Source: Ceratodon purpureus (Eukaryota > Streptophyta > Bryopsida > Pseudoditrichales > Ditrichaceae). From it: 64,000 nucleotides of DNA. A program made the position numbers and the translations under genes. The notes under the pieces are model-generated. The model searched no databases. It worked only from the letters and a program-made list of their open reading frames with translations, and had not been told where the DNA came from. This document shows, in pieces, positions 33,633 to 56,442 of the stretch; within the stretch, counting starts at the first letter, position 1, and each line of letters starts with the position of its first letter. The stretch spans positions 80,705,566-80,769,565 of the forward strand of contig CM026426.1 in NCBI GenBank assembly GCA_014871385.1. The letters run 5' to 3'.

Positions 33633-33672
33633 CATTAGGGGAAAAATGGGGTCTCCTAAGGGCCTTGTAAGA
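33633..33672 (+). repeat. Left terminal inverted repeat of element A
   Basis: Matches the ends of B and of the 400-bp element over about 40 bases. Inner sequence TTAGGTGAGCTTCCTGCCC also aligns with copy B. Confidence 0.8.
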
Positions 33673-34518
33673 CAGCCTGGATTAGGTGAGCTTCCTGCCC
33701 AAAAACACCTCTGTCGCTGTCAGCAGGGGTCTGAAACGCTGCTCGGAGCGACCTTTTGGAGACGGACGGGAGCTGCGTGGCTGGGTTTTGCCTCATTGGC
33801 GAGAGGGCGTGGACGGTGGTTGTTGAGCGCCAAGGAGTGGAATTTATTGCTCTGCGATTAATGAACTGCCTCGATCCGTTGCCTTGATCCACGTATTGTT
33901 CGAGTTGTTGCCACAACGGTTTGGGCGTGATCGCGCCACCGGCTCTACGCCGCTCAGCACTAAGAAAACAAAGCGCCCTGTTTTGCTTCAAGCAAATCGT
34001 TGTTGGCACTGTGGGATGCAAAATTGTATGTGAATTGCTCCAAAGATTCCGAGTGGCGATGGCGCCCCAGATCGGTGGAGAAAAATTCAGATCCCCATCA
34101 ATTTCTAGGCAGCGTCCGCTGGCAGCGACGGCGGCGACGGGTCGTTCTCAGTTGGCGACATTAGCTTCAACGATGAGATGAAAACTGATGTACTTGAAGG
34201 GAAGGTTAGTTAACCTAATTCAATAAACCTTTGTGGGGTGTTTAGGAGCTAGTGGGTTTTAGAGCAATTTGAATTTCGATTTCATTAGGCCTTGCTGCCA
34301 CAACGGCATAAGGCAATGTAGGTTTCGTGGTCGATTTACCACTTGTAGATGCCAGGCAGGTCTATCGAATTAGGTTCGAAGCATTTGTGGTTGCGAATTT
34401 AGTTTTTCATTGGGTGTAGGAGGTGTCTCGAAATCATAACAAGTTTTCTCGATTACCTGCAAATCACCAAGCGTGACCAGGGGAGATTCAATCAAGACTA
34501 CCGACTATCGGGTCCACG

Positions 34519-37500
34519 ATGGCAGCAAGGGCTGCACAAAGCAATCAGTACATTCCCCAAGTTTCACTGGACACACGCTATGCCATGGTCATCAGTCGAG
34601 GTTCTACGCAAGAGGAGTTGTGCATGAGGAGCTCGTTTCCAACACGGAGGTTGCGTGGAGACACGAACATTGACTTGTGGATCAATGGAGATATTAACCT
34701 TGCTGATCCAGTGACAGGGAAGCCACCTCCAATCAAGTCGCTAAAAGAGTTCATTGAATTCATATGTCATGGAGAGCGGGGTCTTTGCGGATATACATAC
34801 AGGCTGCTGGATCATTGTGTACATGGTCCTACACAGGTTTAGGGGTCGTGGATCCAGTTGGCACAGTTGAGCAAAGAAGTACTTCAGCTTAGAGGCGAAG
34901 CTCTAGCCAGCAACTCAAAGGCAGCCGAAGATGTCCAATTGGGGAGAATGCGTTGCCTTCAGTCAGAGAAGACATGCACGGATTTGCAAGCTGAATTGCA
35001 GGCTGTCCGTGATTGCCATGCCCAAAGGGTGGAGCAATTGGAGCGCCATGTGCAGGGTCTCGAAGAAGACGTTGACCGCTGCCAGCGGAGGGCCAGCTTC
35101 GAGAAGGAGACCCCCATGGGCATGCAAAGTAGGAGGAGGGCTCTTAGAGGGATTCACGAGTTAAAACCTGGATCAAGTAGATCAAAAGCAAGAGTGAAGC
35201 TTGTGTGGACACTGCTGCAACCAGATGTGGTGCAGTTTGTTGTCCAAAGGAACCGAGAGAACCGGAAGTGCTCTCGACTGCGGGGGGATAAAGAGTCCCA
35301 AAATAGGACTGTAGTAGCACTAGCTCGAATTTTGTCACGGCATGAAGGTGTAGCGCTCGCTTCTCAGCCTGCAATGGCACATGTTCAGTGAGATATTGCG
35401 AAAAATGTGCTCAAATCGATTGGTAAGAGTATTGGACCGGACAAAATTCTTGCTGCTTGCGACCAGGCAGGGGTTTCCCATCGGGGATATGGTGCTCTCT
35501 ACAAATCTGTGAAGGCTCCCATTGCTGCTCTGAACAAAGGAGTCTCCGGGAGTATTTTGCCGAGCCCCTATCACGTGAAACTGCTTCGGCAGGAGTTAAA
35601 TGCAAACGTGCCACAGTATATTGGCGAATACTACCATGCTGAAGGTCGACTTACGCTGCCAGCAAGTTCTAAGAAGAACAAGAAGTCCGAGGACATGGTA
35701 AAGGAAGTCGTTTTGACTGACAAGAATTCCCTATTCACAGACCTTGAGGTGGTCCAAAGAAGCATGGTGATCTTCTACGGCATCACGGAAGAAGGTAACG
35801 TAATCACCTCGGACTGTTGTTTTCAGAGTTTGCTGTCAGCAGGGTTATTTATCAATTAACTGTGACTTCCACATCCACTCGCCATGTTTCCACAGAGTTA
35901 AGAAGGGCACCGCTGGTATTTGTCATGAAATTGGACAAGGCCGAGATTGTCAATGGCAAGAAATTTGAATGGGTGAGCATCACGTTGATGAATAAGGCAC
36001 TTGACCCAGACATTCAGAGGAACCATGCCCTGTTTTTCTCAGTCTAGTCAGAGCAAGAAATCTAGCCAGTGGCAACCTTTCAAGTGGAAAAAGAGTCCTA
36101 CAAAGTTCTCTCGTGGATATTTGGGAAATCCAAATTTCCATCTGTGATTGCAGCACAGTCAAGTGGCGAGAAACTCACGGTCTTTGAAGTTGGAGAATTC
36201 CATGTGGAGTGGCATCTCGCTGCGGACATGAAGACAATCAAGTGTATGTACGGACTTCAGTCAGGGCCGTCGTGTGCAATGAACTGCATATACTGCGAGC
36301 AGAAGAGGGCTAAGCCTACCGTAGGGACAGCAAGCCAGGCGAGTGGTGCCATTAGAAAACGTGGGAAACCGAACTGGGTGGGGGGACAATTTGCCAACTC
36401 TGTGGAGCCAGGACCTTGTGACATGCATGCACATACAAGATGGCGGCCTATCTTGCCAATTCCATTGCACAGAGTGCACAGAGTGCACATTTGTACACTC
36501 CATGCCCTGGTTCAATTAGCGGAGAAGATTGTGCATCAACACATCATTTATGTCTGGAACATACAAGATCAAAGACTGAGGGCTACAGCAATAGAGCAGA
36601 TGGAGAAGTCCTTGTCTTTTATACGCACTCATGGTAGCAACGTGGAGATTAGAAAGGATCGGAAACTGAGTGGCAGCACGGGGAATGTGCCACAGAAACC
36701 ATCTTTCAGTGGGGTTGTTGCCAGCAGACTATTTAGACCAAGCGTTTGGTCTGGAAACGACAAGGCCTCGAAAGACATATATCAAGCAGAGAGCAGTAAT
36801 AGTGGCGGCGGTGCACATCGTAGAGCAAGGGCTGCTATTTGGCAAGCCTTTGAAGTGGTTCTACCATATTTCAGCGGCTTGGTGCTGACAGCAGAACAAC
36901 GACTCCAGTTCAAAGGGAAGATAGAAACGTGGGGGAGAACATTTTTGGAGGCCTTTGGAGAGGAGCATGTGTCGCACTACATGGTGAGTTATATACATGA
37001 AGTTTGGGATGAATTAGGGGTTGATGGCTGACCTTACTTTCTTCAATTCTCAATCCAGGACTAACCTTGGAGTGGCTGTTGACAGCATGTACTTGTCAGG
37101 CATGGCAGTTGGTTTGTGGAGGAATACGGTAGTCTGGCCGTATGGAGTTGCCAGGATATGGAGAAATCCCATCATCAAGCGAAGGCAGCAAATCAGGCGC
37201 ACACAGCTCATGGTGGTGGCAAAGAGCGCATCAGTGTTATTTTGCAACAATTCCAGCATTGGTACCGAAATATACAGCATCGATATAAGAAGAAATTAGA
37301 GAGCACCAGGGTTCTCAATACCCTCAATGATGAGGCAAGATTGGAGGCTTTGCGTAGAAGGCGAGAGCAGTGGCATCGATCAAATGCTGCCAGGGCTTTG
37401 GAGAATTGGCGGTCAAGGCGACAGCGTGTTGGCAGAGCTTGGGTGTGTGATAACACCGTTGGAGGTGGTGGAGCCAACAATGCTGAAGCAAGTAGTTCTG

Positions 37501-37625
37501 CCAACGAAGATGACTCCGGGGAGGATGGCAACAATGTGGATCCTGAGGAAGGTCGCAACTCCCTTGACAGTGACGACGCTGGCAACAACGTGGACCGCGA
37601 TGACGCTGGCAACGAGCCTGTATGA
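34519..37625 (+). pseudogene. Module 1, copy A: coiled-coil RNase-H-like (DDE-type) transposase candidate
   Basis: Starts ATGGCAGCAAGG, as does copy B. The N-terminal domain (34519-34842) has DTNIDLWINGDI and FIECHGERG-like (FICHGERGLCGY) motifs. A coiled coil (34858-35110) follows, then a domain with ILAACDQAGVSHRGYGALY. The putative catalytic core holds KLDKAE (D at 35934), HLAADMK (D at 36225) followed by C-x3-NCIYC, and DMEKSHHQAK (E at 37161), then HTAHGGGK and an acidic tail. An intron at 35795-35895 joins frames exactly; a second starts at 36984 after HYM and ends near 37108. Stops: TAG 34840, TGA 35389, TAG 36045 and 36063. Element movement is inferred from the core layout, not proven. 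Confidence 0.6.
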
Positions 37626-38225
37626 ATTGAGTACAATGCGTTCTAAACTCATTGGATGGACATCTAGAATGTGGCAAGATTTTTTTTAATTTTAATTCTT
37701 TTAATCAGAGTAGACAGTGGTTCTTCTACAAATATGTTTTTTGGTTTCATTCTAGAATAGCCACTTACAGATAGATTTATCAAAAATTCCGATGTTTTTC
37801 CACGAATTGCCTAAAATGGCTTATGCCTTCCTATGTTAATCTTGATAACTATTAAAAAGGCACCCATTGAGAAGGTAGTAACCCCACTGACGGAGAGGTC
37901 GCTGGCAGCAATGAGGACAGTGACGATGCGAGCATTGGCCGTGTGTGATTTGAGAGCTCTGTGTCTTAGTAATTAATTTGTAGCTATATAGAATGTGGCT
38001 GCCAACAATGTTTTTTTTTTAATTGGGTTAGACCATGGTTCTCCCTTAAACTTGTTTTGTGGATAACTCACAATAGTGCCTACTCCATGCAATTAGTAAT
38101 CTCCTTAATTAATGGGTCTTAGTAATCATATGTACCAGTCCCGCTAAAATTAAGATTTTAATTTCAGAGATGATTTTCTAAGTACCCACAACAAATGGGG
38201 ATGTGTGGTTTAGGGCCATGGCAAT
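37626..38225. other. AT-rich segment within element A
   Basis: This is non-coding sequence after module 1. At 37860-37950 a short duplicate of the module 1 acidic tail can be read (EVAGSNEDSDDA), suggesting partial tail duplication. The rest shows nothing. Confidence 0.45.
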
Positions 38226-39370
38226 GATTTGCATGGAGTGGCAATTAAGGGGGATATGAGAGCTTCCCACCAACTCCGTAACCTCCCTTCATTAAACTCT
38301 ATTTCAGACCCTGAACCCCCCTTAACCAAGGACGCACAGGTGGTTGACTCCAGCACAGGTTCCCCTCTCATTTCTTCTCTTCTTCCCACACGCCGCACGT
38401 GGTTGACTCGAGCACAGGTCCGCGCCTTCTTGCTGTTGAGGCCGCTTCCCTTGCTTCCAGCAAGCGCGCGGGCTTTTCTCCGTTTTTCAATTGGAGTTGT
38501 GGGTGCCGGAGAGAGATCGTGGACACGAAGGAAGGCGTCTTTGCGCCGTTGCTGATCGGTGGCAGGTGACGCCAAGGGCAGCAGCCGAGGAGGCGCAAGA
38601 AATTGTTGGAGGTTGCGGAGTGCAGCTCGAAGGAGCTGCAGCGTGAGGCGCGGGCCGTGGAGGAGGGGGCAGCGGAGCTCGGGCGCAAGGGAGCTGCGAC
38701 TGAGCTGCAAGGAGCTGAAGAGGGAGCAGCATTGCACGCTCGCTTAGGCGCAAGGAGCTGCGGAGGCGCAAGGGTAGCGAAGAGCTGCGGAGGCGCAAGG
38801 GGCTACGGGGGTGCAAGGGGCTGCGGAGGCGAGCTGCGGAGGGCAGCTGCGGAGGCGCAAGGGAGGAGCGGAGGAGGCGCGCAAGGGCGAGTTGCGGAGG
38901 AGCAAAGTCGCAGCAGGGGTGTCGCGAGGCGCAAGGAGCTGAGCTGCAGACGCGCAAGGGGCGAGTCGTGGAGGCCAAAGAAGGGAGGAGCAGAGGAGGC
39001 GGGCAGGGGCGAGTTGCGGAGGCCAACATTTCGGGAGGCTCAAGGGACAAGCTGCAAGGCGCGAGGGGCGAGCTAGGGAGGAGCAACAACAATTCTGCTT
39101 CGGACTTCAGCGAGGTAAGCTGCTAGTTTTCTGCTCTCTCCTCCTCGCATTATTTTTTTCAATTAGCTGTTGGAGTAAATCGGTCATGGTGTATTCGGAG
39201 TAGACAGTGGTTTAGCCATGGCCGCCGCAGTCCTTAGTTCTACAAGATTTTTGGAGAGAAAATGTAACTAGTCTAATCTGCAAGAATAATACTCTGTCCG
39301 TTTCTCACCTTTCAGCTGCCATGCGCGATCTCCCTATCGTAAAACGTGTTGTTTTTGCACTACAGCGCCA
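38226..39370 (+). promoter_or_regulatory. GC-rich 5' region of module 2, copy A
   Basis: This GC-rich island lies directly upstream of module 2. A comparable GC-rich island precedes module 2 in copy B (50540-51075, minus), so it is probably the promoter/5' UTR of that gene. Long ORFs on both strands here (up to about 200 residues, Arg/Ala/Pro-rich) arise from composition and are not believed to be proteins. Confidence 0.4.
38735..38880 (+). repeat. GGCGCAAGGAGCTGCGGA minisatellite
   Basis: Imperfect repeats built from GGCGCAAGG and AGCTGCGGA recur about every 20-30 bases, continuing more loosely to about 39070. Confidence 0.75.
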
Positions 39371-39373
39371 GGG

Positions 39374-41335
39374 ATGTCAAGCCGTAGGAAGGAAAAGGCC
39401 GCGGCTTCTCGGGAGGAGGATCGCATTGAGAAGAAGGAGGCCATCGTGAAGAAGGAGGTCGTCGAGCTTGTTTACAGCAAGGAGGATGGCAACGATGTTG
39501 AGACGCCATGGGATGATGCGTTTGATTTGGAGGGCTTAACCCCCTGCACTTCATGGACAACTCCACCACCTCGCCCCATTTCTGCTGGGTAGGCAGGCTG
39601 CGGATTACGATGAGGACTTCTTCCACCGCACCTTGCAGCTCTCCAACAAGGGGTTCAAGTTCAATGACCTCACCGGCGACAAGCATTGCAGGAAGGCCAA
39701 CTTCATCGACAGATGGCCAGAGCGTTCTTTTGGGCGGCACTACGTTGCTGACAGTGAGGATCCAAAGGCCTAGAGGAAAAACTTGGAGATGTACCGGTGG
39801 ACTTATGGAGGTGACCTCGACAATTGGGCATTCGGGACCTCCTTCCTTCGGGCTTGCCACATCTACTTTGAGGAGGGCGTGGATGTGAACTTTGCCCAGA
39901 AGGCGTAGGCAATTGTGAAGGGGCGTGAGAAGTTGCCAAGGCGTAATCCGCAGAAGTTGACACCCTCGGCCTTGAGGGAGCAGATTGAGGCCATCATCGA
40001 CTTCCTCGCCGGCCACATCCCTGGTGCTGGCAGCAAGAGCAAGGGCGGAGGGGCGGAGGCGAGTGGAGGGGCCAAGGCACTTGGAGCCACCTCTTAGGCC
40101 TTCACGGCCGCGGAGGCGAAGAAGGTCAGGGGTCGTAGATCCCTGCCCGGTCCTGCCAAGGCCGTGGCTCAGAAAAAGGCCGTGAAGACCCCGGCTGCCG
40201 TTGCCATCAAGGTGCAGCCCTTGGTGGCAACGGATCCAAAGTAGGTCCTGGAGCAGCATCGCCTCAAGAAGAAGTCATTGGAGGCGGCACTTGTGAAGGT
40301 GGAGGCTAGCCGGGACCGCGTGAAGGTCGACCTTGCAACCCAGCGGGACTACATCAAGGCCAAGGAGGCCGAGGAGTCCAAGCTCTATGACGACATCTTC
40401 TCCGCTCGCGAGGCCGCCAAGAAGGCCGCGGCTGATGGCAACGACCAAGAGAAGAGGCGCTTTGACCAGGCGGCCCGCTTAGGCCAAGACAAGCTGGGGC
40501 TTGCAAGCAAGGCACTCCTTGAGGCCCAGGCCCGCATTGATAGGGTCTACAAGAAGTTGGAGGAGATGGAAGCCGACGAGCAGAGACGGCATGCTGAGGT
40601 CTCCGCGCTGACAGCGGGGATCTCGGCCTTGGAGTTGGCATCAGCTTTCTTGCGGCGGAAGAAGGTGTTGGCTCGTTACCCCCGGGAGTTCTAGGTGTTG
40701 CCAGGAGCCCTGAACGACCCATGCCTCTTCTGCGAGCGTTACTTCATCGACACCTGCTGCGTACCTTTGTTCTGCGGCTGCTTGGCACATCCCCATTATA
40801 AGTTTGAGACAGTCTTCTTCCAAGACGCCCGATGCCGCCGATGCGAGCGGGGGATGACTGGAGGATGGCTTGGGCAGTGGGGCTTCTACCTGGACTCCAA
40901 GGCCGCGGAGGAGTTACGTCTCACGGAGGAGATCCTCCTGGCCGAGCCCGTTTCACCACTTGCGGGCAGCAAGAGGACCGCTTCCCCCTCTGTGCCCGCG
41001 CTTCCGTGGAAGAAGGCCAAGGGCGACCAAGGTTTATTGCCCGTAAACCTAACTACCCATTGCTCGTTGTTACATCCGAATGTTACTTCTTTTCTAATTC
41101 TTGTTTGATGGCAGCAACTGCAGAGGATGCTCTCCCAGACTCGGACTCCCTGGCGTTCGATCCCACGCAAAGCTCTCCTCATGAAACCCAGGCAGCCCTA
41201 TCCGGAGTTGGGAACAAGGACTCATCCGCCACCACTCAAGGATCAGGTGAAGCTGAGAAGAACAAGGACGACACCAACATGGAGGTACTGTCGAGCCTTG
41301 TTGAGGCAATTGCCACAAATGCAGCCGTGGAGTAG
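39374..41335 (+). pseudogene. Module 2, copy A: coiled-coil protein with C-terminal RING-like zinc cluster
   Basis: Starts MSSRRKEKAA. A DNA-binding-like domain of unknown type follows (DEDFFHRTLQLSNKGFKF, RKANFIDRWPERSFG, GGDLDNWAFGTSFL, PQKLTPSALREQ). Then comes a long Lys/Glu/Ala coiled coil (40278-40660) and a zinc cluster: CLFC, CGCLAHPHY, CRRC, ending GGWLGQWGF. After a probable intron (about 41033-41106) the C-terminus ends SLVEAIATNAAVE, like copy B. Five in-frame stops (39771, 39906, 40095, 40242, 40692) are all TAG, plus a frame change near 39590. The zinc cluster suggests protein or DNA binding; E3 ligase activity is possible but unproven. Confidence 0.6.
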
Positions 41336-42610
41336 ATTCCCACCTTGGATAGTTTTCTAGGCCGGATTAGGGGTTTGCTGGCAGCAATTGTAGGTTCGGA
41401 CTTTTATGGGCCACCTTTCTCAAAGTTTTCCAAACTTGAAAACAATTCGCCTCTGGACTGCCATGTCTCCTTGAAAGAAATGGCATTCTTGTCACCCTTC
41501 CTTTTTATTTGCAACTGTATTTCTTCTTTATTGTGGACTTCCGACAGCAAGGGCTGCACTTTAGCCGCCATTTTATCTTTCGACCTGTTGTTCTCTTCAA
41601 GCCCGCGCTATCTAAGAGCCATGACCGTCATCGAAGTTCTTCAATTTGTATTTCCCTTCTTATATGCAACCAGGTTGCATTTTCTATTTCCAAACTTTTT
41701 TTTTTTTTTTTTTTTTTTCTTATTTCATTATTCGCAACCATGGTTCCTTTTAGTTTTTGCAATTGTTATTATTTTCCGTATGCAATCTACTTCACCTCTT
41801 ATGTACAATTGTTTTCTATTTTTATCTTATTCTATAAGAATCAACCGTGGTCCTTTTTTTATTTGCAACCTTCTTTTCTTTTCTTGTTGTTGGCAGCAAG
41901 GGGTGTATTGTACCCGCCACTGCTAGTTCAGAGCACCAGGTTCACGAAGGAGCCAACCTCTCCGACCGAAGTGACAAACTTTACATTCCTTCCTAATTAG
42001 TTTATATTTGTCAAGTGCCAAATTCCATTTTGTGTTTGCAAGTCATGTGGTCTCTTCTTTGCAATTGTTTTTATTTCTTATCTTGCGATGGCAGCAGGCT
42101 CCACCGTCAATGGCGCCACCACAAGTTCTAAGCAATTTTCCAATTCAAAACCGGGCTCTTTGAAACCCTGGCCATTCTTTAGACTTCCTGTATTTTATTA
42201 TATTTTTCATTGGCACCCTAGGATTCACTTCTTAATTGCAACTGTCTTTGTGTTTTGGTTCCGCTAGCAGCACGTAGGTGGAGGGCACTTTAAATTTGCC
42301 GTATATAACACGTTAATAGAGGAAGTCCCATAGAAAGTCCTGAATGGTAAGCAAAACCACTACCTAAACTCACTAACGACTTGGCGAAGAACCTAATGAC
42401 ATCCCACATACTGTAACTATCCATTCCCGAAATCACTTTTCCTACAGCTCCACAATCTTCATCCTTTTGGGAATCGTGACATCCGCAGCTGTAAGGTGTC
42501 TCTATGGCGCTAGTTTATCTGCACCCAACCATGCCCTGTCATTTTCGTTTGCTGGCAGCAATGAGCCCTAAACAGCCAATTCCCAACACATCTAAACGAC
42601 AAGATGAATT
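41336..42610 (+). other. Non-coding segment with repeated GGCAGCA words and poly-T
   Basis: Lies between the convergent ends of modules 2 and 3. It holds repeated T/C-rich lines with TTTGCAA words and a GGCAGCA-type word at about 41380, 41890, 42090, 42260 and 42552. A poly-T run lies at about 41699-41719. It looks like a degenerate tandem structure and not a gene; the ORFs at 41345-42000 are Phe/Leu-rich artefacts. Confidence 0.45.
41699..41719 (+). repeat. Poly-T tract
   Basis: About 21 T bases inside element A. Confidence 0.9.
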
Positions 42611-42613
42611 CGC

Positions 42614-43764
42614 CTAGACTTGTACCTTTTTCTCACGAACACCATTGGCCTCTATCACAACCAGGTTGTACTGCCCGGGTACGTCATCTCCAAGTGCCAT
42701 TGCAATTTCGTGCCGCAGGTGGGATACTGGCCAACCCTTGCCAACTTCGAATGTTGGCAGCAGGTTCCCCTTAAACATACAAGACACTTCCACCATCACC
42801 TATTCTGGTAGGTGATCCATCGCTTCCCACTAACTGTTGGCAGCCCCCCTATACCTTATATACCTGAACCTGGTGTATAATGTTTGTCTTCCCACGTGAT
42901 AGCCGAAAACAATGCTGGTCCTGTTGGCAAAGCACATCATGACATCTTGGCCAATGTGGAACTTCTCGTTCCACCCTGGCTTCATCAGACTGCTCAGCAG
43001 AGCCTCGGATGGACTACTCAAAACAAACAGTGTAGGTGTCCACCTAATGCTGTCAGCAACTACCGCAAACAAATCAACCATAACATGGATTGGCATAAAC
43101 CATTAGTGGTGGACGAAGCTGCTACCAGTTGTTGCTTTCATGGCATTTGCAAAATCGAGAGTGAGCTTTGTTCTAAACGCCTCAGATGTGTGCATGTCTG
43201 GCAAAGGCCACTCCACATCGTTGAACCCTGGAAGCGGGAGTGCTTCAACCTTCCCGTAAGCGTGTCACCTGTTGGAGGCAAATACAGACCACCAAGGAAG
43301 AATGTACCTATGTCCAGCAACTCCGCGTGGCTCTGTCGATTCCGTGTTGCCTCCCCAATCTCAACATGGAGCACAAGAATGGGACCAAGGATAGTTGCGG
43401 GATGTACCCAATCTTCCAAAACCGACGCGTACAGGTAGTTTGCCATACCCGAATTGGTTGCTGCCTCCGTAGGATCCAAGCGCAGATGCCTTGGCTGATA
43501 TGCATGCTGCACAAGCACCTTATCAAGGTTGCATGCTCCATGCTTCGTGGAGATCCAAGAGAAATCTCTGATCTGCGCTTTGAAGGCCCCTCCAAACTTT
43601 TCTCCACCATGCCGCCTTGCTACTCTACCCCAAGGCCCATCCGACGCTGGTTGCAGCATAACCCATGAATCACGATCCACCCTCATGGGAATCCAATTGC
43701 CCTCCAAGTCTTGAGTGTTATGCAAGATGACACTCTGTACGAGGGAGTTTGGCCGTGTAGCCAT
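42614..43764 (-). pseudogene. Module 3, copy A: unknown protein with C-terminal ubiquitin-like segment
   Basis: On the minus strand it starts MATRPNSLVQSVILHN and aligns with copy B over its whole length. Conserved pieces are DRDSWV, GPWGR.ARRHGG, FFLGG, FMPIHVMVDLFAV and PSEALLSSLMKPGW. The C-terminal 60 residues (MVEVSCMFKG, PTFEVGKGWPVSHLRHEI, YNLVVIEANG) have the strand and helix pattern of a ubiquitin-like fold, with a hydrophobic helix face. Damage includes a frameshift near 43230, TAA near 43100 where copy B has Gln, and two TAG codons before the Ubl part. It runs toward module 2. Function unknown; an adaptor pairing with the module 2 zinc protein is speculative. Confidence 0.55.
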
Positions 43765-44505
43765 ACCACTAGAATGCATGAAATTTTCGACTGTGAATTC
43801 AAAAACTTACAGATGTTGTCGTCGCTGTCATCAACCGCGAGAACTACATGCTGTCAACACACCCTCCGCCATCACGAACGGCTAATTCCGACGTCCACGC
43901 CGTCGCAACCAAGGTACGACCTACCCTAAACCTCATCCTGAAACCCCAATTCCCAACTCAGGTGCTCTCTCCAACCTATGTGGACGGCAGACCGCTGGCA
44001 GCGTTTGGGAGACCACTACAGCTAAACCCTAAATCTCTATTGCACAATGCGTGACCACCGACAGCCCAAATCGAACAACATTACCTAGCCTTTGGAGGCC
44101 TCCACCGTTCCATCCTGGTTGACAACGCAACCGCGACAACTCTCTCACGGCACCGTTGGAGGTTTGGAATGACCGTTGGCAGCATTTCGACATCAACACC
44201 TTGTGCACGTTGCATCTCAAAGGGGGAGCGGCAACTCGATTCCGGTAGGTGGCCAAACTCAGTCAGTTTTGCAGGAATTCATAAACCCATCAACACTGAC
44301 AACCTTCTCCAATGCTCGGATTCCGTTCTCGAAGAGGCTCTGTTCTCGGCCTGCGGGACTACACGCGCGGGAGAGGGAAGCATTCCTGCGCGAGTATTGG
44401 CTAGACCCCCCCATTCGCGATTTGGCTCGCTTTTGGCGACTTGCTGGCACCATTGCTGCCAGCAGGTAAAGTGCACGGGCATGGCAAAAATTCAGGCAAA
44501 GATTC
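43765..44505. other. 5' flank of module 3 in element A
   Basis: GC-rich sequence upstream of module 3, holding several GGCAGC-type words (43998, 44174, 44441, 44452). ORFs on both strands lack copy-B support and are not called. Confidence 0.4.
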
Positions 44506-44545
44506 TAGGAAAAGGCCTTGTGGAGACCCCAACCTTCCCCTAATG
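44506..44545 (-). repeat. Right terminal inverted repeat of element A
   Basis: Read inward it starts CATTAGGGGAAGGTTGGGG and keeps AAGGCCTT. It is more decayed than the left end. Confidence 0.65.
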
Positions 44546-46263
44546 TGATGGGCCACACAAACCATCATACAAAGAGAGGGGCAAACAAAATTAATTAAGC
44601 CTTAGAAGTGGAGGATGGATGGTATTGTACAATGTTTTTTCATCCCATTTTGCTAGAGCTAAGTAGATAGTAATCCACACTTGCGACCTCGTCTTTGAAT
44701 TATTGACGGACAAGTGCAACTTGTGCTTGAAACATTTTGAACGAGAGTGGGCATATACGTTGATGCAATGCAGCCATACCTTTCACATTACTTGCATCAC
44801 TGCAAGCTCGTTGACACAATCAGTGTGTCCAATGTGTTGCTTTCCAATTATTACCAGGTTCTACAAATGATGAGGCTTCAACACATTATGCCCCATCGGC
44901 ACGACTTCCATTCAATGGAATCTCCCATTGGATCAACTTCCAACAAAATTCTTCAATTATAGGTAGTAGAGACAACTATTTATTTAGAGTTCTTTGTCAT
45001 CTTCTCACTAACTAATTAAGGAATGCAACATCGGAGGAGATGCATTCTCATGGATGACACAAGACTACAATCTAGTTGTAGTCTTGCGCATTCCATCAAT
45101 TGTAGTCATTAGCTAGAAGAATGGGCTAGACATGCCTGGAGCAAAATGATTAGTGTTATTGGAAGAGAATGTTAACCTTGTGAAGACATAGGTGGGGAAA
45201 ATATTGACAAGCTTTGCATCAAGAAAGGTGAATGCGTGCAACTGAAAGCGCAAAAGAGATGATTGATACAACACCAACGATAGTTAGTAGGCAAGAGTGC
45301 AATGCCAAATTTCAGCCGTGCATTGAAAGTACAAAGAGGATAGGAAGATTGCAAGGTTAAGCCAGAGGACACGGACTCGCAGTCAAACAAAAGCATATCA
45401 TGTAGACGAGCCTTCTTTCCTAGCAAAATAGTTTCTAGAAGGATTATTGTGGTATTTCTTGAAAGATGATTAGATAGAAAGAAGTGGTAGACATGCCGTA
45501 GTAATCTTTTACTATGAACGTAAGGAGAAATTGTATGGAAAAAGTGATTGATATAATCTCTACTTTTAAATTTCTGAATTTCATGTGTCATATGGATGTT
45601 AGAAATGAATAAAGTATACTTTTGCGTGGCGTGTGTGCCAATGTATGAAATATATAGACTATTTTGAACTAAAAGACTATGTGTTATACCAAAAGATGAG
45701 CAAACTGCAATTCAGAAAGAGTACAAGACAATGGTAAAAATGATAGGAAACAAATGTGCTTGTATGTGGAATAATCCAAATGGATCTCTTAATGAATGAA
45801 GAAGGAATTAAGACAACAAAAGCTTTTCACGCATCTCCGTAAATACAACTATAGAATTGACATTGGAACATCAGTAACTTATATCACTCCCTAGGTTGCA
45901 TGCTATGTCTACGTCAAAGATTTTACCACCCACTGATGTTCATTGGAGGATCATAACCATAATTATTCTTGACTTCAACCCCACTAGATCCTGAAAGATC
46001 ATCTTCACAATTGGTCACAGTCTTCACCTTAATCTTTTGCTATGACCCCTTCTTAAGAATGATCATGATTGTTTTGGCCATTTCAACAACATCAAGATGA
46101 GTCTTACCTCGTCAAAAAACAAAAGAAGTGAGGAGGTCAGAGTGTTTTGTTCCTTGACTATTTTATAGGCAGCTTATTTATAAACATGTTTTCAAACTCA
46201 ACTTTGAGCTTATGTTTGAAGAGCTTAGATAATGGTACAATCGCATAGCTAGAAAGTATGTTA
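44546..46263. other. Spacer between elements A and B
   Basis: AT-rich flanking DNA of about 1.7 kb, with no recognisable gene. ORFs at 44747-44962 and 45172-45591 show no motif. One perfect hairpin is listed separately. The spacer lacks the GGCAGCA words seen in the elements, which fits its being old host DNA. Confidence 0.5.
45060..45086. repeat. Perfect 11-bp hairpin
   Basis: Arms CAAGACTACAA and TTGTAGTCTTG surround a TCTAG loop. A third GTAGTC word follows near 45100. Confidence 0.9.
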
Positions 46264-46303
46264 CATTAGGAGCAAAAACAAGTCCAGAAAAGGCTGTCTA
46301 AGC
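46264..46303 (+). repeat. Left terminal inverted repeat of element B
   Basis: Pairs with 56403-56442 with about six or seven mismatches in 40 bases. Confidence 0.85.
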
Positions 46304-46450
46304 GGCACGTGAGAGAAAAAAATGGGGCCTACCCGCATACTTTCTGACGTGGTCGCACTCGTGCCACCGTGGTGCCACCAAACCGCCAAGGGGGGTCGAA
46401 CCAATGACCTTCCTGCAAGGCGTGTGAAGGCGCTGCTACAGTTGCAAGCT
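46304..46450 (-). other. Subterminal tRNA-like segment of element B
   Basis: On the minus strand GGTTCGACCCC (46392-46402) matches a Pol III B-box. The whole segment aligns with 17900-18060 of the 400-bp element. It could be a SINE fragment fixed inside the transposon end. The corresponding end of copy A lacks it. Confidence 0.5.
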
Positions 46451-47205
46451 GATAGTGATCTGGCGGAGCCTCGGACCGGATCCCGAGCCGGCCTGCTCGT
46501 GTCAGCGATCTTTCTGCCGGCACTTTGAACGAGGACATTATGAGTTTGCCCACCTCCCTCCTCCATCGACGACGAGTGAGTGCTGAAGTTTTTTGAACGC
46601 GTAGGGAGAGTGAGTGCAGCCAGCAGGGGTTAGTGCTAGGAGAGAAGCGTGGCATGTGGGAATTTTTTTGCAGCCAGCGGGAGTTGGGGCTGGGAGGATT
46701 CCAGCTGATTTGGGAGAGTGGGTGCGGATTTGTGCAAAGGGAGAAACACGTGATTGTGGGAATATGGTGCCGGCAGCAAGAGTTGGCACTTGTTGCGAGT
46801 TGTCCAGGTGATTTGGGGTATTGGGTGTTGTATATGTAGTGAATTGTGCTTGAGTAGGACATCTTGAATCAAGGTGGAAGTGCATCTTTCTTAGCTGTCA
46901 ACTCAATGTGCCGTTCGCTGCCAGCGAGCTACAAAACTAGATAACTTTTTTTTCATAACGATCAATTCCATGTCTTGACATGATCCAGGCTTTTTTCCCT
47001 CCTGGAAGCAATGTTGTGACTAGGCAAGATTATGGAAAACTTCATCTTTGATTACCAACTCAGAATTTTGCTATCGTCAAGTACTAAAACTGTGCAAATG
47101 TGATTTTCTCTGTGCTGGCAGCATGTTCCCTCGCCTTGGTTGGTACGAAAGGGAGATGTTATAGTTCATTATTGTGTCTCCCAACACCTTGGGGTATAGG
47201 GAAGC
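46451..47205. other. 5' flank of module 3 in element B
   Basis: Holds GGCAGCA-type words (46618, 46770, 47115). ORFs on both strands lack support from copy A. Confidence 0.4.
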
Positions 47206-48354
47206 ATGGCTAGACGGCCAAAATCGCTAGTTCAGAGCGTAATTCTGCACAACGATCAAGATGTCCATGGCAATTGGATCCCATTGAGGCTGGACCGGGA
47301 TTCATGGGTTCAGCAGCAACCAAAGTCGGAAGGGCCTTGGGGTAGAGAAGCAAGGCGGCATGGTGGAGATAATTTTTGAGGGGCCTTCAAAGCTCAGATC
47401 ATGGATTTTTCATAAACACCTGGTGTGCGTGGAGCAAGCAACCTGGATAAGGTGCTTGTGCGGCATGCATATTAGCCTCGCCAATTAAGCTTGGATCCCG
47501 CTGTGGCAGCGAGTAAGCAATGCACGGCCAACTACCTATACTGCTCGTACTTTGATGATTGGCTGCACCCCACATCTATCATCAGTCCCATTTTTGTGCT
47601 CCATACAGAGATTGGAAAGGCGACGCGGAATGGTTAAAGCCATACAGACTTGTTGGACACGGGTACATTCTTCCTTGGTGGCGTATATTTCCCTCCGGTA
47701 GAGCCTATGTTGTACGAGAGGATAGAACCAATCCCGCTTCCTGGTTTCAACGACGTGGAGTGGCCTTTGCCAGACATGCACACCTCTGAAGCCTTCAGGA
47801 CGAAGCTGACAGCAGATTTTTCCAATGCGATGAAAGCGTCCACTGGTAGTAGTTTCGCCCATGACCAATGGTTTATGCCTGTCCACGTTATGGTGGACTT
47901 GTTTGCGGTTGCATGTGACAACATTCGGCGGACTCCTACACTCTTCTTTCTACACTCCCCGTCTGAGGCACTCCTAAGTAGCTTGATGAATCCTGGATGG
48001 GTTGAGAAGTTTCACATTGGCCCGGATGTTATCAAGTGTGTTGTGAATAGGTCCAACATTGTCTTCCAGTACCATGTGGGCAAGCAAACAGTACACACTA
48101 GGTTCCAGTAGACAAGGTTTAGGGGTGTTGCCAACAACAGATGAGATGCGATTGACCATCTACTAGAGGTGAAGATGGTAGAAGTCTATTGTACATATAG
48201 AGGGAGACCAATGCCAGCATTTGAAGTAGGCAAGGATTGGCCTCTATCCCACTTGCGCCATGAAATTGCAATGACGCTCGGAGACGATGATCCCAAAGAG
48301 TTCAACATGGTTCTGGTGGAAGCAGACGGTTCACGTGAAAAAAGGTACATGTAA
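47206..48354 (+). pseudogene. Module 3, copy B: unknown protein with C-terminal ubiquitin-like segment
   Basis: One continuous frame of 383 codons starts MARRPKSLVQSVILHN and ends with the Ubl-like piece (MVEVYCTYRG, PAFEVGKDWPLSHLRHEI, FNMVLVEADG). It matches copy A from end to end, which fixes start and frame. Stops interrupt it near 47379, 47412, 47487, 47634, 48109 and 48142. Copy A has Gln at two of these places (AYQPRH, NRQSH), showing C-to-T origin. From 47650 to 48108 it is open. The middle has a conserved LPGFNDVEWPLPDMHTSEAF segment. No known catalytic motif is seen. Confidence 0.6.
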
Positions 48355-49079
48355 GCAACATCACTCCATTGGTTTTAGATACGCAAGGTGCTGCTACTTG
48401 GTGCCAGCATAACGGTACTAACAGAGTTTGTTAGAAGCATTGATGTAGATCAACATACGTAATAAGAAGCGTGTACTTCTTTGTAAGGTGGCGGTTCCCA
48501 AAACCATCAAGATAGTGGAAGTGTAGGACAGCAACGTTTTCACCACGGCATTAAGGTGTTCTATCAGGGTCTTCACAAGTCTGCCCACAATATTTGAAAT
48601 GCCTCCACGTTTCAGTAACCGATGCCAGAATGATTTTTTATACTTGTAAGGGACTATGCGTTGTGCTTGAGACATCATGTATGGTTTAATATATGTTTTA
48701 TCATCCTCTAAACGGTCTGTAACCTTCCCCCTTGATGAATGCAAGTCTACTTCATCTTGCTGCCAGCACAAATTAGGGTTTAGAACAAAGGCGACTTCCA
48801 TACCATCACGACCAATGTTGCAGCCACATGTACAAAATGAATATAAAAGAGGATAACATTCATCATAAGTGTACAAAAAAATGAGGTTCGGATTTTAGAA
48901 AGTCTGACCCCCCCCCATCTGAACTACTTACACACTGCGACCAGCAACTACTTGCTGGCACCGCAGCTGCAAACATAGAGTCAAAAATCAAGGCAGAATT
49001 TGAAAATGCAACGTGGATCAACATAAATGCCGCTAATACTAATCCAATATGGCACTATCAACAAAAAAAAACATAGACT
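48355..49079. other. Non-coding segment between modules 3 and 2 in element B
   Basis: Equivalent in position to 41.3-42.6 kb of copy A. It holds GCTGSCA words near 48758 and 48952. The minus ORF at 48418-48876 shows no motif. Confidence 0.4.
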
Positions 49080-50219
49080 CTAAGCTTCTGCTGAGCTCGC
49101 GATGGCATCAACTAGCTTCTCTAGGGCAGCTCCAGCCAGGTCTTGAGTCCACCACCATGAGAGGCTGAGTCCACCACCATGAGAGGCTGTGTCCTCGGCG
49201 TCCTGGCGTGGAGGGGCTTGTGTCTCCCGCTCGAAGCTCAGGTTATCTGACTTCTGGGTGTTGGGAACACCATCGGCATCCCCTTCGGCGGCTGGCAGCA
49301 AGGTCGCGGATACCAGGGGCTGAGCGGAGGTCTTGGCGATGACAAGCGGATCCGAAGCCCCCCCAACCTCTTCAAAGCAAGCCTTCTTCCTGACTTGGTC
49401 TTCCTCCCCCAAAGGAAGAGAAGTGCCCTTAGCCGCCCTCTTGCTGCCAGCAACGGGGCTCTAGAGGTTTGGTACTCCGACCCCGGACTTGAGAACCTGC
49501 TGGAGGTGGTGGAGCTCCGCTTGAGCTGACTCATGCAGTGGAAATCCCCATTGCCCAAGCCACCCCCTACTCAAAGAGCGGCAGCAACGGCTACACTTGG
49601 CGTCAAAAAAGAAGACAACCTCAAACATGCAATGTGGGTGTGCCAAGTTGCCGCAGTTCAAGGGTACAAAAGCGGCGTCAACAAAGTACCGTGCATAGAC
49701 GGGGCAAGGGTCGGAAACCTGAATGGGGAGGGCTCGAAACTTGGATGGCAGGTGTGGGAGCACACTCTTCAAGCAAATGAATGGCGCTGCCAGCTCGAGT
49801 GACATGATCTCCACACTAAAGACCCCGATCTCGGCCTTGCACTTCTCTATGTCCCCCATCAATGCTGCCAGCTGCATCTCCTTGTTGTCAATGCGAAGCT
49901 GGGCTACTTGGGCAGCCTTGCTTGCATTGGAAGCCTGATCACCACCAAGACGGGCCAAAGCATCCAACCTCTTCTTCTCATCTGTGTTGCCAGCGGCCCT
50001 GGCTATCTTGTTGGTAGTACGGTGGGCGACCACATTGTCATAGAGCCGGCCCTCCCTATCCTCCTTCTCCTTCGAGAAAGTCCTCTAGTTCTTCAAATCT
50101 CTAAGAATCCCCTCCCTTTGAGCCTCCTTCTTCGCAAGGTCGGGACCTCCCTCGCCTTCGTGGTCAAAGGGGAGGTCCCACGGCGTGAGAACATCGTCGT
50201 CCTTGCTGCCAGCAACCAT
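49080..50219 (-). pseudogene. Module 2, copy B: short coiled-coil / RING-like zinc protein
   Basis: On the minus strand it starts MVAGSKDDDVLTPWDLPFD. It goes directly to the coiled coil (50090-49830), omitting the roughly 200-residue N-terminal domain present in copy A. The zinc cluster reads DPCPVYARYF, CGNLAHPHC, CSRCCRS and GWLGQWGF. The first Cys pair (CLFC in A) is reduced to CPVY, so zinc binding here may be impaired. The C-terminus ends LEKLVDAIASSAEA. Two in-frame stops, both TAG (50085 and 49461). A 24-bp duplication lies in the tail. Function as for copy A, unproven. Confidence 0.6.
49144..49191 (-). repeat. 24-bp tandem duplication
   Basis: GAGTCCACCACCATGAGAGG plus CT(G) occurs twice in a row inside the module 2 tail of element B, adding eight residues in frame. 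Confidence 0.9.
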
Positions 50220-51075
50220 GGCTGCGACACAACCACTTCTTGTTAGAGATGACAGTACCTGAACTAAAATCAACGCACTCTAAGTCCTACATAAATAGTG
50301 AAGTAGGAAAGAGAGTAAATCCAATGTTTAAATTCTAAACTTCACAACAAGCACAGCTGCAACACGTGAAGGAAAGCTTCTTGCATACAGTTCATCACCC
50401 ATTCATTTACACAACCAAGTCGGCAACCATCTTGACACAACCATTTGCAAGTAGAAACCAACACGCCTCTTCCTTGCAAAGTAGACTGAGCCCAACAAGC
50501 ACAGCTGAGCTCAATGAAGAAATTTGAAATAACCAATTGAAATTCTAACCTGAACTCCGTGCCCCTTCTACCTTGCAGCTGTCCGTCGTTCCTCCTCGTT
50601 GCCTGCAGCTTCCCGTTGCCACAGAATCTGCCTCCTCACTGCCTTGCAACTGTCCGTTGTTTCTCCACACTGCCTTGCAGTTGCAGCGCCCTCCGCATCA
50701 CCCCTCAAGCGCCGCCTCTCGAGTCTCCTCCTTCGCGTCCATAGCTCCCCTCCTCCCCGCCCGCAGCTCTCCTCCTCCCCGCCCGCGACTCCCCCCCTCT
50801 GTACCCTCAGCTCCGCGGCTCCCTTCCTCCCTGCGCCCTCAGCTTCGCGCCTGCGGCTCTCTTTCACCCCGCAACCCCAGCCCCCCTCTCCCTTCCCACC
50901 TTCCTCTCTTTGCACGAGCTCGCTCGGGTCTCCTCCTCCGCTCCCTGGATCTCCCCTCCAAGTCGTTGCCTTCAGCACGGAGGGGTTGCTGGCAGCAACG
51001 AGGGCAAGAGGGGGGAAGGGGAGCGCTCCTCCCCCTCTCTACCCAGCGCAGGAATGGGCGCCCATTATAATGCAG
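50220..51075 (-). promoter_or_regulatory. GC-rich 5' region of module 2, copy B
   Basis: A C/T-rich island (50540-51075), GC-rich on both strands, upstream of module 2 on the minus strand. It is the counterpart of 38.2-39.3 kb in copy A. It carries an exact TTGCTGGCAGCAA at 50986-50998. Pro/Ser-rich and Gly/Arg-rich ORFs over it reflect composition. Confidence 0.4.
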
Positions 51076-51079
51076 CCCC

Positions 51080-52359
51080 CTCTACCATGTCCCATCACAT
51101 TAAAAAAGATAGGATAAAAAGAAAAATTGAAAAAAGAATTGAAAAAAGAAAACAAAAAATTAGGGGAAGAAATATGGAAAAAAAGAATAAAAATAAAAAC
51201 AAGATAAAAACTCTAACATAAAAAATAACAAACGGCAAGAGAATTATCTGAAATTGGAAGGAAAAAAAAAAAATAAAGACAAAATAAAAACCAAATGAAA
51301 ACAAAACCTTATTCAGCGATTTTAAAAATACTTGAATGTGGGAAAAAATAAGAGAAGTTGGGAAACTAACTAAATTAAAAAATGAGAAGATAACATAAAA
51401 AATGACGAAAGATAACAAAATAATTAAAGATTGGAAAAATAATTCAAGGACATTGAGAAAAGTTTTTTAAAAAGATTTTAAAAAGGGGACAAAAGTGTAT
51501 AAACTAAAAAAATGTCAGGAACTTGGGAAAGATATAAAAAATAGGGAAAAGGAAAAAAAAAATGGTGGAAAAAAAATGAGGAAAAAGGGAAATATATAAA
51601 AATGGAGGAAATGAAGAAAATAAATAATGAGGGGACCAAAAGACGACAAAAAAGGAAAAATAAAATTTGGGGGGACCAAAACAGAGCAAACTCAAAATTC
51701 CAAATGGTAAGGAACCTTAACGTGAATTGAGAGAAGAAGGAAATAATGTAATCTTATATATTATCAATTAGTAGTTCTCAAAGGAACTTTCGAAAACATC
51801 ATCTGCTATCAAATGAGAAAAATATGAAATTCGAAAAATTAAAAAGTGTAAAAATTATTATTCATATCGATATATTAAAGAATATGAATTGTATAAGTTT
51901 ATGAAAATCTTATAATTTATTCTGGAATAACTTCCCGTAAAAGTGTAGTTGGCTCTACTATTTCGTTTTTATATGTTATTTTCGTATTTCTTACCCTTCG
52001 TACCAAGTACCCTATTTTATTTTAGGAGAACTATTATAATTCTTTAATAAGTATTGTAAAGATGAAAATTTTAGAAATTTGGGAAAAGAATCAAAAGAAG
52101 TGATAATAAGAACCAGAACAAAACAAAAATCAATTATTATAAATTATCAACTCAGTAATCAATGAGTAAAGTTCACACTACAATATTGGAAGAATAAAAT
52201 AAAGACAAAAACAAGATGAAAATCAAAAAAATGAAAAATGGAAGATAAGAGAATTATCTGAAATTGGAAGGGGGGAAAAAAAAAATTGGAGACATAATAA
52301 AAACCAAATGAAATTTAAACCTTACTTGGGGATTCCAAAAATTCCAAAATGTGGAGGAG

Positions 52360-52422
<63 letters not shown>

Positions 52423-52935
52423 CCAAAATCGGAACAAAATATCATGAATTTGGAAATAAATTCAAGAAGAACGCATCTCATTAATTATAAATGAGAAACC
52501 ATGTCATCAACGAGTAAAGTTCACACTACAATATCAGAAATTGAAAAAAGACAAAGGAATTCAGAAAATGTCGTTTTAAAAAGATGGGAGGAAAAACATG
52601 AAATAAAATAAAATTAAAAGTTAGAAAACCATTAAAGAAATGAGGAATAAATTTAAAAAGAGATAATAACTAACAAGCTTGTCTCCTCTTCCCGGCCTTG
52701 TAGACTATTTTCATTAACATAAATTCAAACGCCAAAGATTAGGTTAGAAGGATCTCATGTATTCAACTTCCATCTAAAGGTCTTACAGAATACATGTACT
52801 CTTTAAAATATTATTTAGTGGTTCTCAAAGGAACTTTCAAAAACATCATTCTAAAGAAATGAGAAAAAACATAATAAGAACTAAACAGAACAAAACCTAG
52901 AACAAAACCATGAAACTGTTCAGTTCATTATACAC
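51080..52935. other. A-rich insert with internal direct repeats in element B
   Basis: The plus strand is extremely A/G-rich, unlike the flanking element DNA. A block containing GAATTATCTGAAATTGGAAG occurs at about 51240 and 52250. A block with GTTCTCAAAGGAACTTTC occurs at about 51774 and 52823. A block with GAGTAAAGTTCACACTACAA occurs at about 52162 and 52510. These look like segmental duplications within a non-coding satellite-like or retroposed sequence. No gene. Confidence 0.6.
52365..52420 (+). repeat. Poly-A tract
   Basis: More than 50 consecutive A bases. It could be a retroposon tail or slippage. Confidence 0.95.
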
Positions 52936-53047
52936 TCTATAGGATACATTTGAAATGAAAGGTATTACTTTTGTACAACATTACCCTCCTACAATACATT
53001 GTATAAAAAGAAAAAACATATCAACTGTGCTGAAGTCTCTGAGCCCC

Positions 53048-55633
53048 CTAGTCACTGTCAGCATGTTCAATGTTGACATCGGGGGCAATATCCTCCGAGG
53101 CACCCCTGTTGCCAGCATCTGCGATGTCCTCATAGTTGCCATCAGCGTCCCTCTGTTCATTTTCCTCGCCCCCACCGACAACCATGTCCCCGTTAGCATT
53201 CCATTCCGGCTCTTCTTCCATCATGCCATCTCCTTCGCCCTCCACGAATTCTTCAAGAACATATGCTCCCCCAATACGCCTCCTCCTTGACCTCCACTCC
53301 TCGCAGGCAATGGCAGCATTTGATTGATGCTACCACTCGCATCTCCTCGATGCCGCTAGGGCCCGTGGTCTGTCATCCGGGTCAGGTACAGCTCCCTAGA
53401 TCTCCATTTTCTTCCTACAACGATCTTGTATGTTTCGGTACCAATGCTGGAACTGTTGGAGAATTGCACTAGTACGGGCTTTCCCACCACCATGGGCTGT
53501 ATGTGCTTGATGTGCTGCCTTTGCTTGGTGGTGTGATTTCTCCATACCTTGGCAACTCCAGACTCCAAGGCTCCCATAGTGATCCACAAACTAAGTAGAG
53601 TGTCGTACAATTACGTGTTGTCAACAAGAAGAAGGAAGTTAAAAGGCGGATGCTTAGGTCAAGTAGACGGTTCACTGAAGAAACACCAAAAGCAACAACA
53701 GACAAAGCCGTGAGCATACCATATAATGCGTAACATGCTCCTCTCCGAAGGCCTTTAAGTATGTCTTTCCCCACTTGTGTATCTTCTGCTTGAACTGCAT
53801 CCGTTGCTCTGCCGTCAACACAAATCCGGTCAAATATGGTACGACCTCTTCAAAGGATTGCCACATCTGATACTTTGCAATGCCGTCAGCTCCACTTCCG
53901 GCATTATTATTCTCAGCTTGACATATTTCCTTCCAGGCCTTATCATTGCCAGACCAAACGCTTGGCCTAAAAAGTCTGCTGGCAACAACACCACTCAGAG
54001 AGGGTTTCTGTGGCACGTTTCCAATGTTGCCACTCAACTTTGAGTCGCTCCTAATCTCCATGTTTCCATTATGAGCCCCAATTGTGGACAACGACTTCTC
54101 CATCTGTTCAATTGCAGTAGCCCTAAGTCTCTGATTTTGTATGTTCTAAACATACAGGATATGGATGTGCACAATTTTCTCTGTCAATCGAACTTAGGCA
54201 TGCGGTGTACGAATGTGCACTCTGGACAAAGGAATTGGCAGGATAGGCCTCCACCTAGTAGATGTTGTCATGTCACAAGGTTCCTCAGGTACGCTGCTGG
54301 AAAATAGCCCCTCCACCCAGTTTGCTTTACCACGGCTTTTGATGGCAGCATTTGCCTGGCTTGCTGTCCCCACAGTGATCTCTATCCTCTTTTGGTCGCA
54401 GTATATGCAGTTAATCACACATGCAAGCCCAGACTGAAGCCCATACATGCACTTAATTATCTTCATGTCTGCTGCAAGTAGCCACTCAACATCGAATTCA
54501 CCAACTCCAGGGATATGTAGTCTCTGGCCATCTGACTGTGCTGCAATCACAGCTGGCAAGTTCGACTTTCCAAATATCCACGAGAGAACATCGTAGGACT
54601 CCTTCTCGACCTGGAACGTGGCAACTGGCCAAATCTCCTGCTCGGATGGTACTGAGAAGTACCTCTCGTGGTCCATTGAATGTTAGCGTCCAAAGCCCTG
54701 TTCATCAACGTGATGCTAACACGTTCAAATTTCTTCTTGTTTACAATCTCTGCCTCATCCTATTTGAGGACAAATATCAACGGAGCCCTTTCCAACTTTG
54801 CAAGAATCTCCTCACGTGAGAATGTTTGTGTAATGCAATCGAATTAGCTTCCTTTCTTAAAGACACACAATGCAGTTGTTGGCACCATACAAACATTCAC
54901 CTTTGCTGCCAACAGGATAAGAAGAGGATGCATACCTGATTCGGTGATGCCATAAAAGATCACCATGCTCTGCTGGACCACCTCAAGGTCCGTGAATAGC
55001 GAGTTTTTTCATCCAAGACTACCTCCTTTCGCTGCTCTTCGGTTCTCTTGCTTTTCTTTGACACTATTGGCAACTCCATCCTTCTCACAGCGTGGTCAAT
55101 AAATTGTGGCAAATTCGCATTTAGCTCTTGCCGAAGCCTTCTAACGTGGTCGGGACTAGGTGGTATGTTGGATTAGTCTCCAATTCAATCCGCAATTGCA
55201 TGCATGTATCCTCAAGGTCCCTGTTATGGTCAAGCCTCTCTCTGGTGCGAGCAAGGTCGTCTCTCACCTTCCCTAGTTCTTCTTCTAAATGTCGGCACTG
55301 CATTTCCATCTCACGCCGTATAGGTCCTCCTCCATCAACGAGACCCAATGTGCGGGCATATCCATACAGACCTCGCTCTCCATGACATATGAATTCCAGG
55401 CAATTCCAAAGAGTTTCGAATGGAGGTGGCCTCTCTATCCCTGGATCAACCGGGTAAATGCTGCCATCGATCCACAAGTCAATGTTGGTATCCTCGGCTG
55501 CCCTCCATCCTGGAAATGTTGATGGGTGGGGTTGCTCGCCTCGAATTGAACCTCTCTTAACAAGTGGTGCATAGTGTGGATCAAGACAAACTTGTAGACG
55601 GTAGCTTGAAGGCTCCGCCACTCTTGCTGCCAT
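53048..55633 (-). pseudogene. Module 1, copy B: coiled-coil RNase-H-like (DDE-type) transposase candidate
   Basis: On the minus strand it starts ATGGCAGCAAGAG and follows copy A: DTNIDLWIDGSI, FICHGERGLYGY, a coiled coil, then the core. Candidate catalytic residues are D in DEAEIVNKKKFE (near 54750), D in LLAADMK (54467-54469) and E in GMEKSHHQAK (53540-53542). HTAHGGGK and an acidic tail ending EHADSD follow. GT-AG introns after ITESG (near 54935) and after HYM (about 53725 to 53590) match the copy A positions. Damage: a frameshift near 55130, TAG before DEAE, TAA and TAG near 54110-54190. The conserved residues, despite decay, argue that both copies descend from a working enzyme. Confidence 0.6.
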
Positions 55634-56402
55634 CGAGAGTCCTGAAATCCAAAGTAGTGGGATCCAACTCTCAATGGCTCGGATCGGATTGGAAGTATGA
55701 AGAAATACGTTCTTGAGATTGCCAAATACCCAAAACCGCAGAGTTCTCAACACCTAAACCCTATACCATAGCCACTCAAGGAAATTGCAATATGAAATGA
55801 AGAGCATCATGTACTTTAGTACAGGCCATGCACGACCCGAACTTTCCATAGTAAATACGACATTTACACAACCTCTTCAGTCCACGGCAGTAGGAGTTGC
55901 AAGAATACCCTTCCAATGCTTACTGCTCGAATTTGTAATTGCTGCCAATGCGTATCCGTAAAAACGTGCTCACAGGTTTAGTTGTCACTCTTTCCCTTGA
56001 ATTCCTTTAATTCCACCTTAGAATTGGGTCTTTGGTCCTGCAACACCCAAATTCTACGCACCCAACTTTGATTCACTCCATTCCTAGGTGGGGAGACCAA
56101 CCTAGTCCCGACCGAGCTCCATGGCTTCTTCCCGTTGTGGCAGCAAACTTCGAATCTTGAAACGGTTGACACCAATCTCCCGTCATCTCTCCTTCGAATC
56201 GGGCTTGAAGGGCAGTAAATGCGACAAGTTGTGGTTCACCAAAAAACAGAGCCACCTCGGCGCCACTAGGCACACCGACCCCGCCCCGCAACCCCACCCC
56301 GAGACCATTAAGACGCCTTATTAACTCTGCGCGCAGCAATTCTGGCACTCGCTGCCAGCAACAGAGCGGCATTTGGGCAAGGGATTCACCTAATTTGGGC
56401 AG
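55634..56402. other. Upstream end region of element B
   Basis: Holds leader sequence of module 1 on the minus strand and subterminal sequence homologous to the left end of copy A (GCTGCCAGCAACAGAGCGGCATTTGGGCAAGGGA near 56350-56385 and its counterpart at 33690-33730). No separate gene. Confidence 0.45.
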
Positions 56403-56442
56403 GCTTACACGGCCTTTTCAAGACCTGTTTTTGCACCTAATG
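56403..56442 (-). repeat. Right terminal inverted repeat of element B
   Basis: Read inward: CATTAGGTGCAAAAACAGGT, then CTTGAAAAGGCCGTGTAAGC. It is the best-preserved end in the family here. Confidence 0.85.

Follow-up and report, generated by a model that had tools for sequence, protein, structure and literature searches.

The window analysed here is a 64,000-nucleotide stretch of the moss Ceratodon purpureus (assembly GCA_014871385.1, contig CM026426.1, positions 80,705,566 to 80,769,565 of the forward strand). It contains three members of one transposon family with terminal inverted repeats (TIRs) and precise shared ends. Two of them, element A (33633..44545, plus strand, 10,913 bp) and element B (46264..56442, minus strand, 10,179 bp), are decayed copies of the autonomous type; both run from CATTAGG to CCTAATG, and B is inverted relative to A. 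The third, element C (17695..18094, plus strand), is a 400-bp non-autonomous member with 40-bp TIRs, resembling miniature inverted-repeat transposable elements. The preliminary description of this DNA had recognized A and B as oppositely oriented relatives with CATTAGG ends, shared subterminal sequence and three gene modules, and end alignments and translated comparison bear this out; C had been overlooked.

All six ends of A, B and C align over approximately 40 bp. In A, the TIR next to module 1 occupies 33633..33672 (plus strand) and that next to module 3 occupies 44506..44545 (minus strand), the two being identical at 30 of 40 positions; in B, the module-3-side TIR lies at 46264..46303 (plus strand) and the module-1-side TIR at 56403..56442 (minus strand). 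The TIRs start with CATTA(G/C)G in all three elements and in the other copies with exact ends. In ungapped comparison with the right end of C, the left ends of A and B are each identical at 30/40 positions and the right end of B at 35/40, the top score of 200 shuffled queries across the whole window being 25/40; the right end of A, which matches its own left end well, reaches only 24/40 here and falls under this bar. The subterminal sequence is side-specific: in A, B and C the module-1-side ends are alike, and so are the module-3-side ends. As C carries both end types, it looks like an internal-deletion derivative, a non-autonomous form keeping only the two end regions. Compared with the two ends of a full-length copy on contig C9 (5092218-5103742, 11,525 bp, 40-bp perfect TIRs, no repeated flank; hereafter the C9 copy), the ends of C match over 118 bp at 77% and over 191 bp at 90%.

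Gene modules and selection

Three modules are common to A and B, and their order and relative strand are identical (tblastn, A against B). Module 1, a putative DDE-type transposase gene delimited by translated comparison, lies at 34486..37613 (plus strand) in A, with stops and frame changes, and at 53108..55675 (minus strand) in B, with stops. In A, an N-terminal and coiled-coil part is followed by a catalytic part (approximately 35862-37613), as judged from translated comparison and motif residues. Module 2 (40245..41108, plus strand, in A) encodes a coiled coil and a RING-like Cys/His cluster, both labelled by eye; its core, homologous between the two elements, spans 40290-40982 in A and 49431..50138 (minus strand) in B. 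Module 3 (42437..43765, minus strand, in A; 47134..48539, plus strand, in B, by translated comparison) encodes a conserved protein of unknown fold, which has a 414-aa open frame in the C9 copy.

Stops are found within modules of both A and B, and purifying selection acted on all three modules. The ratio of nonsynonymous to synonymous substitution rates (dN/dS) between A and B was 0.18 for the catalytic part of module 1 (308 codons), 0.35 for module 2 (228 codons), and 0.12 (206 codons) and 0.31 (170 codons) for two parts of module 3, while controls in a wrong frame or on the wrong strand, four of them usable, gave 1.43, 1.04, 1.48, and 0.87. Moreover, in the six gap-free blocks examined, mismatches between A and B fell preferentially at one position of the codon. 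The synonymous divergence (dS) of 0.7-1.5 agrees with the earlier view that A and B are diverged and did not arise by one recent inverted duplication; it suggests that each lineage was active on its own over a long period, during which selection maintained all three proteins.

Pfam scans gave no model above its curated cut-off, only sub-threshold matches. Scans of viral and of bacterial and archaeal contigs with module 1, and of viral contigs with module 3, yielded no useful relatives. A motif of animal transposase-like proteins, searched for as a DNA pattern, occurred at five viral loci, at two of them in an open frame and in unrelated-looking proteins; none of the five matched the module-1 profile. 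Within the window, the Cys/His cluster of an open frame at 19038-19412 looks, by eye, like that of module 2.

Genomic copies and insertion sites

The contig that holds the window, C6, is 110.5 Mb long, or 30.5% of the 362.5-Mb assembly. In published sources, the U and V chromosomes of C. purpureus are each put at more than 100 Mb, about 30% of a 360-Mb genome (PMC8000587), and two assemblies at 358 and 349.5 Mb (PMC13120521). C6 is most likely this sex chromosome of more than 100 Mb.

The family has many copies in the genome, with over a thousand candidate places. For the three queries that follow, scored matches are given out of first-look candidates, and each tally counts the locus of the query itself. 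With the left 401 bp of A there were 40 matches of 944 candidates (92-100% identity), C gave 40 of 1266 (covering 397-400 of its 400 positions, 92-100% identity), and the catalytic region of module 1 of B gave 86 of 1343 in a protein search. The preliminary description had proposed to seek the ends and module 1 in the source genome, and many copies were indeed there. C6 carries 54 of the 86 scored module-1 matches and 26 of the 40 scored C copies, shares that were counted from best-scoring lists and are thus biased to relatives of queries from C6. Two C copies, L074 (contig C55) and L075 (contig C13), have flanks that are identical over 12 bases to the left and to the right, which suggests a duplicated assembly stretch or a segmental duplication.

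The C9 copy has an open module 3; at least one in-frame stop falls in its module 1, and the same is true of its module 2. Its module 1 contains a short in-frame intron with GT...AG borders, and several genomic module-1 matches have only two TGA and two TAA stops, which are those inside this intron.

DDE transposases of the CACTA/Mirage/Chapaev/Transib (CMCT) group usually make staggered cuts, with a few bases between the breaks in the two target strands. The resulting duplication is the main evidence for insertion used in the field and a key to superfamily classification. For CMCT lineages, a target-site duplication of 2-5 bp is stated in PMC12730594. A fixed-length duplication had also been expected for the present family; none was found, either in flank tests or at three insertions with known empty sites.

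For three insertions the empty sites settle the question. The joined flanks of C gave 114 candidates and 41 matches, namely its own two halves and 39 places elsewhere that span the junction. In eight of these empty sites, read base by base, there was no gap at the junction, the nearest gap lying 38 bases away in one site and 143 bases in the rest. Two further copies of the 400-bp form, L022 (349 candidates) and L015 (78 candidates), had five empty sites each, free of gaps to a distance of 140 bases from the junction. At C, L022 and L015 the joined flanks therefore equal the empty site, nothing was gained and nothing was lost, and these three independent insertions involved neither duplication nor deletion of target bases. 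All three are insertions of the 400-bp form inside other repeats; the repeat that surrounds C (approximately 17084-19412) has coding-like frames of its own. Genome searches found no empty sites for A, B and the C copy L024.

The flanks of 30 of the 40 scored C copies were tested for flush matches, and those of 2, 3, 4, and 5 bp were present in 1, 2, 1, and 1 copies, respectively (shuffle means 1.61, 0.57, 0.28, and 0.09; shuffle maxima 6, 4, 2, and 2). A match matrix of ten positions on each side (n = 30) had no diagonal, its counts ranging over 4-15 of 30, and the flanks were without strong base preference. Four of the 30 copies (L017, L018, L025, and L036) have changed or shifted terminal bases. 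Flush matches of at least 2 bp are absent from the flanks of the full-length elements, A, B and the C9 copy. A 3-bp duplication, initially read from the flanks of A (GAT/TGAT), B (GTTA/GTTT) and C (CTC/CTC), was rejected: the fixed-length matches proved to be within the shuffle range (n = 30), the match matrix had no diagonal, and the CTC at C is already repeated in two of its eight empty relatives, the unoccupied L086 and L087.

Classification of the family and proposed mechanism

Module 1 was aligned from 16 copies, of which 13 came from the 30 module-1 loci retrieved and the other three were A, B and the C9 copy. The catalytic-type residues are kept in nearly all of them (first D in 13/15, second D in 15/16, E in 16/16), as are the C-x2-C pair (15/16 and 16/16; CIYC) and the H-x4-H before the E (16/16; HVIVRH), with the E 20 residues past the second H. 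This order, D...D-CxxC...H(4)H...E, is the arrangement of the CMCT group, and the 5'-CA..TG-3' termini of the elements are another trait of that group. The earlier judgement that no known superfamily fits therefore holds in part: the Pfam model of CACTA transposases, PF02992 (Transposase_21), has no match, and the residue signature is nonetheless of the CACTA/Transib type.

Lanisha, a novel superfamily proposed by Maumus, McDaniel and Carey (2020, Repbase Reports), is described in PMC12730594 as a CMCT-type DNA transposon with two motifs, C(2)C and H(3-4)H, that lie after the second D and before the last E. The same residues are present in module 1 in 15-16 of the 16 copies. Lanisha is said to have been found in C. 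purpureus, which was taken as a lead and not as a test. By citations in PMC12730594, PMC13120521 and PMC8000587, there is overlap between the authors of the Lanisha report and those of the C. purpureus genome papers. Given this signature and this authorship, the family is probably not undescribed, as had been thought possible; judging from features and host, it probably belongs to Lanisha.

On the whole, the data are best read as one cut-and-paste TIR family, A, B and C, most likely of the proposed Lanisha superfamily, whose module-1 DDE enzyme would insert it seamlessly; we place the probability of this reading at about 0.7. The transposon family is real and most likely belongs to an already proposed superfamily, of which its duplication-free insertion would make it a variant.

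An undescribed superfamily distinct from Lanisha, with non-staggered insertion as its hallmark, is an unlikely competitor. The absence of Pfam matches above cut-off speaks for it, as does the contrast between insertion without duplication and the 2-5 bp stated for CMCT lineages; the present family would differ from Lanisha if the Lanisha entry states such a duplication. However, module 1 has the C(2)C and H(3-4)H of Lanisha, and so abundant a family would be expected to have been found by authors who also appear in the C. purpureus genome-paper citations.

Rather improbable, too, is a diverged EnSpm/CACTA element with the usual 3-bp duplication and a module 1 too diverged for the Pfam model. 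EnSpm/CACTA elements carry several genes, and their TIRs begin with CACTA or a close variant. The CA..TG termini and the D-D-CxxC-H(4)H-E pattern of module 1 are shared with them, and CACTA elements are abundant in the same assembly (PF02992, at least 150 scored matches over cut-off of 1940 candidates). Yet the present family starts with CATTA, not CACTA, and PF02992, although it has matches elsewhere in this genome, fails at E up to 1 to match the module 1 of any of the three copies scanned, A, B and the C9 copy. Moreover, 3-bp flush matches occur in two of 30 copies (shuffle mean 0.57, maximum 4), the gain at the empty sites is zero, and no 2-3 bp duplication was seen at the tested sites.

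Transib and RAG1 share the D-D-CxxC-H-H-E order with module 1. Transib makes 5-bp duplications, unlike the present family, and module 1 has no sequence match to solved RAG1 or Transib chains at E up to 10. For Spy, another group of DNA transposons, a lack of target-site duplications is announced in the title of the paper that describes it; however, Spy is grouped with PIF/Harbinger and ISL2EU (the PHIS group) and not with CMCT, and the flanks here, in distinction from Spy, lack a strong base preference. Finally, insertion by a recombinase or other enzyme, with a module 1 that is not DDE, has zero duplication (typical of tyrosine-recombinase elements such as Cryptons) and the unusable structure predictions on its side, and is very improbable in view of the perfect 40-bp TIRs with fixed ends in the C9 copy, the conservation of D, D and E in almost every aligned copy, and the lack of any Pfam recombinase match.

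Several observations weigh against the reading of a seamlessly inserting Lanisha family. Flush flank matches of 3-5 bp are present in six of 37 copies, where 1.05 would be expected (P 0.0006); this set comprises 26 of the 30 copies above, eight of ten further ones, A, B and the C9 copy, after removal of four copies with imprecise ends, one flank-identical to another, and one without exact ends. C, with its CTC, is among the six, and the other 31 copies have no flank match of 3 bp or more; a minority of copies may thus carry short duplications or sit at short-repeat sites. Identity between the joined flanks and the 18 empty sites is 78-92%, and later changes at the junction are therefore not strictly excluded. 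As for module 1, two AlphaFold2 predictions had confidence (pLDDT) values of 31.6 and 34.8 and were unusable for judging the RNase H fold expected of a CMCT transposase, and sequence searches of solved structures with module 1 returned no transposase. One match to poly(ADP-ribose) glycohydrolase in these searches (E 0.002, 55 residues reaching into intron sequence) was taken as chance. The fifth dN/dS control, module 1 on the opposite strand, was badly aligned and was left out. Finally, the probable membership in Lanisha was judged from its described residues and from the host.

In the mechanism that we propose, module 1, whose D, D, CxxC, H(4)H and E follow the order of the CMCT group, would be a DDE transposase that recognises the TIR ends and joins them to a bluntly cut target, with no stagger between the breaks in its two strands. 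A stagger trimmed back to exactly zero in all three insertions would be a coincidence, and directly opposed target cuts are inferred for this reason. Elements of the C type would move in trans with module 1, and modules 2 (coiled coil, RING-like) and 3 would encode accessory proteins kept by selection, perhaps for DNA binding, complex assembly or escape from silencing. The chances are about even that the family combines all of this: a RAG1/CACTA-related DDE transposase acting without stagger, and a seamlessly inserting autonomous element in which a RING-like protein and a third conserved one have been retained.

Other features of the window and implications

Three other features were seen in the window. 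Several mutually diverged repeats (approximately 71-80% identity) occupy 13398-16105. An open frame at 21950-22591 has a weak Pre-SET match (E 0.0005, under the curated cut-off) and is perhaps a fragment of a histone methyltransferase. A further open frame at 58048-58311 on the minus strand resembles hAT transposases and may be a fragment of one.

If the proposed reading is true, a seamlessly inserting family with so many candidate places would escape annotation tools based on duplications. Zero stagger would be possible in the CMCT enzyme group, and the family would provide an unusually clean natural insertion system. The family is also relevant to the question of which sequences fill old moss sex chromosomes, considering the copies found on C6 in the best-scoring lists, biased as these are.

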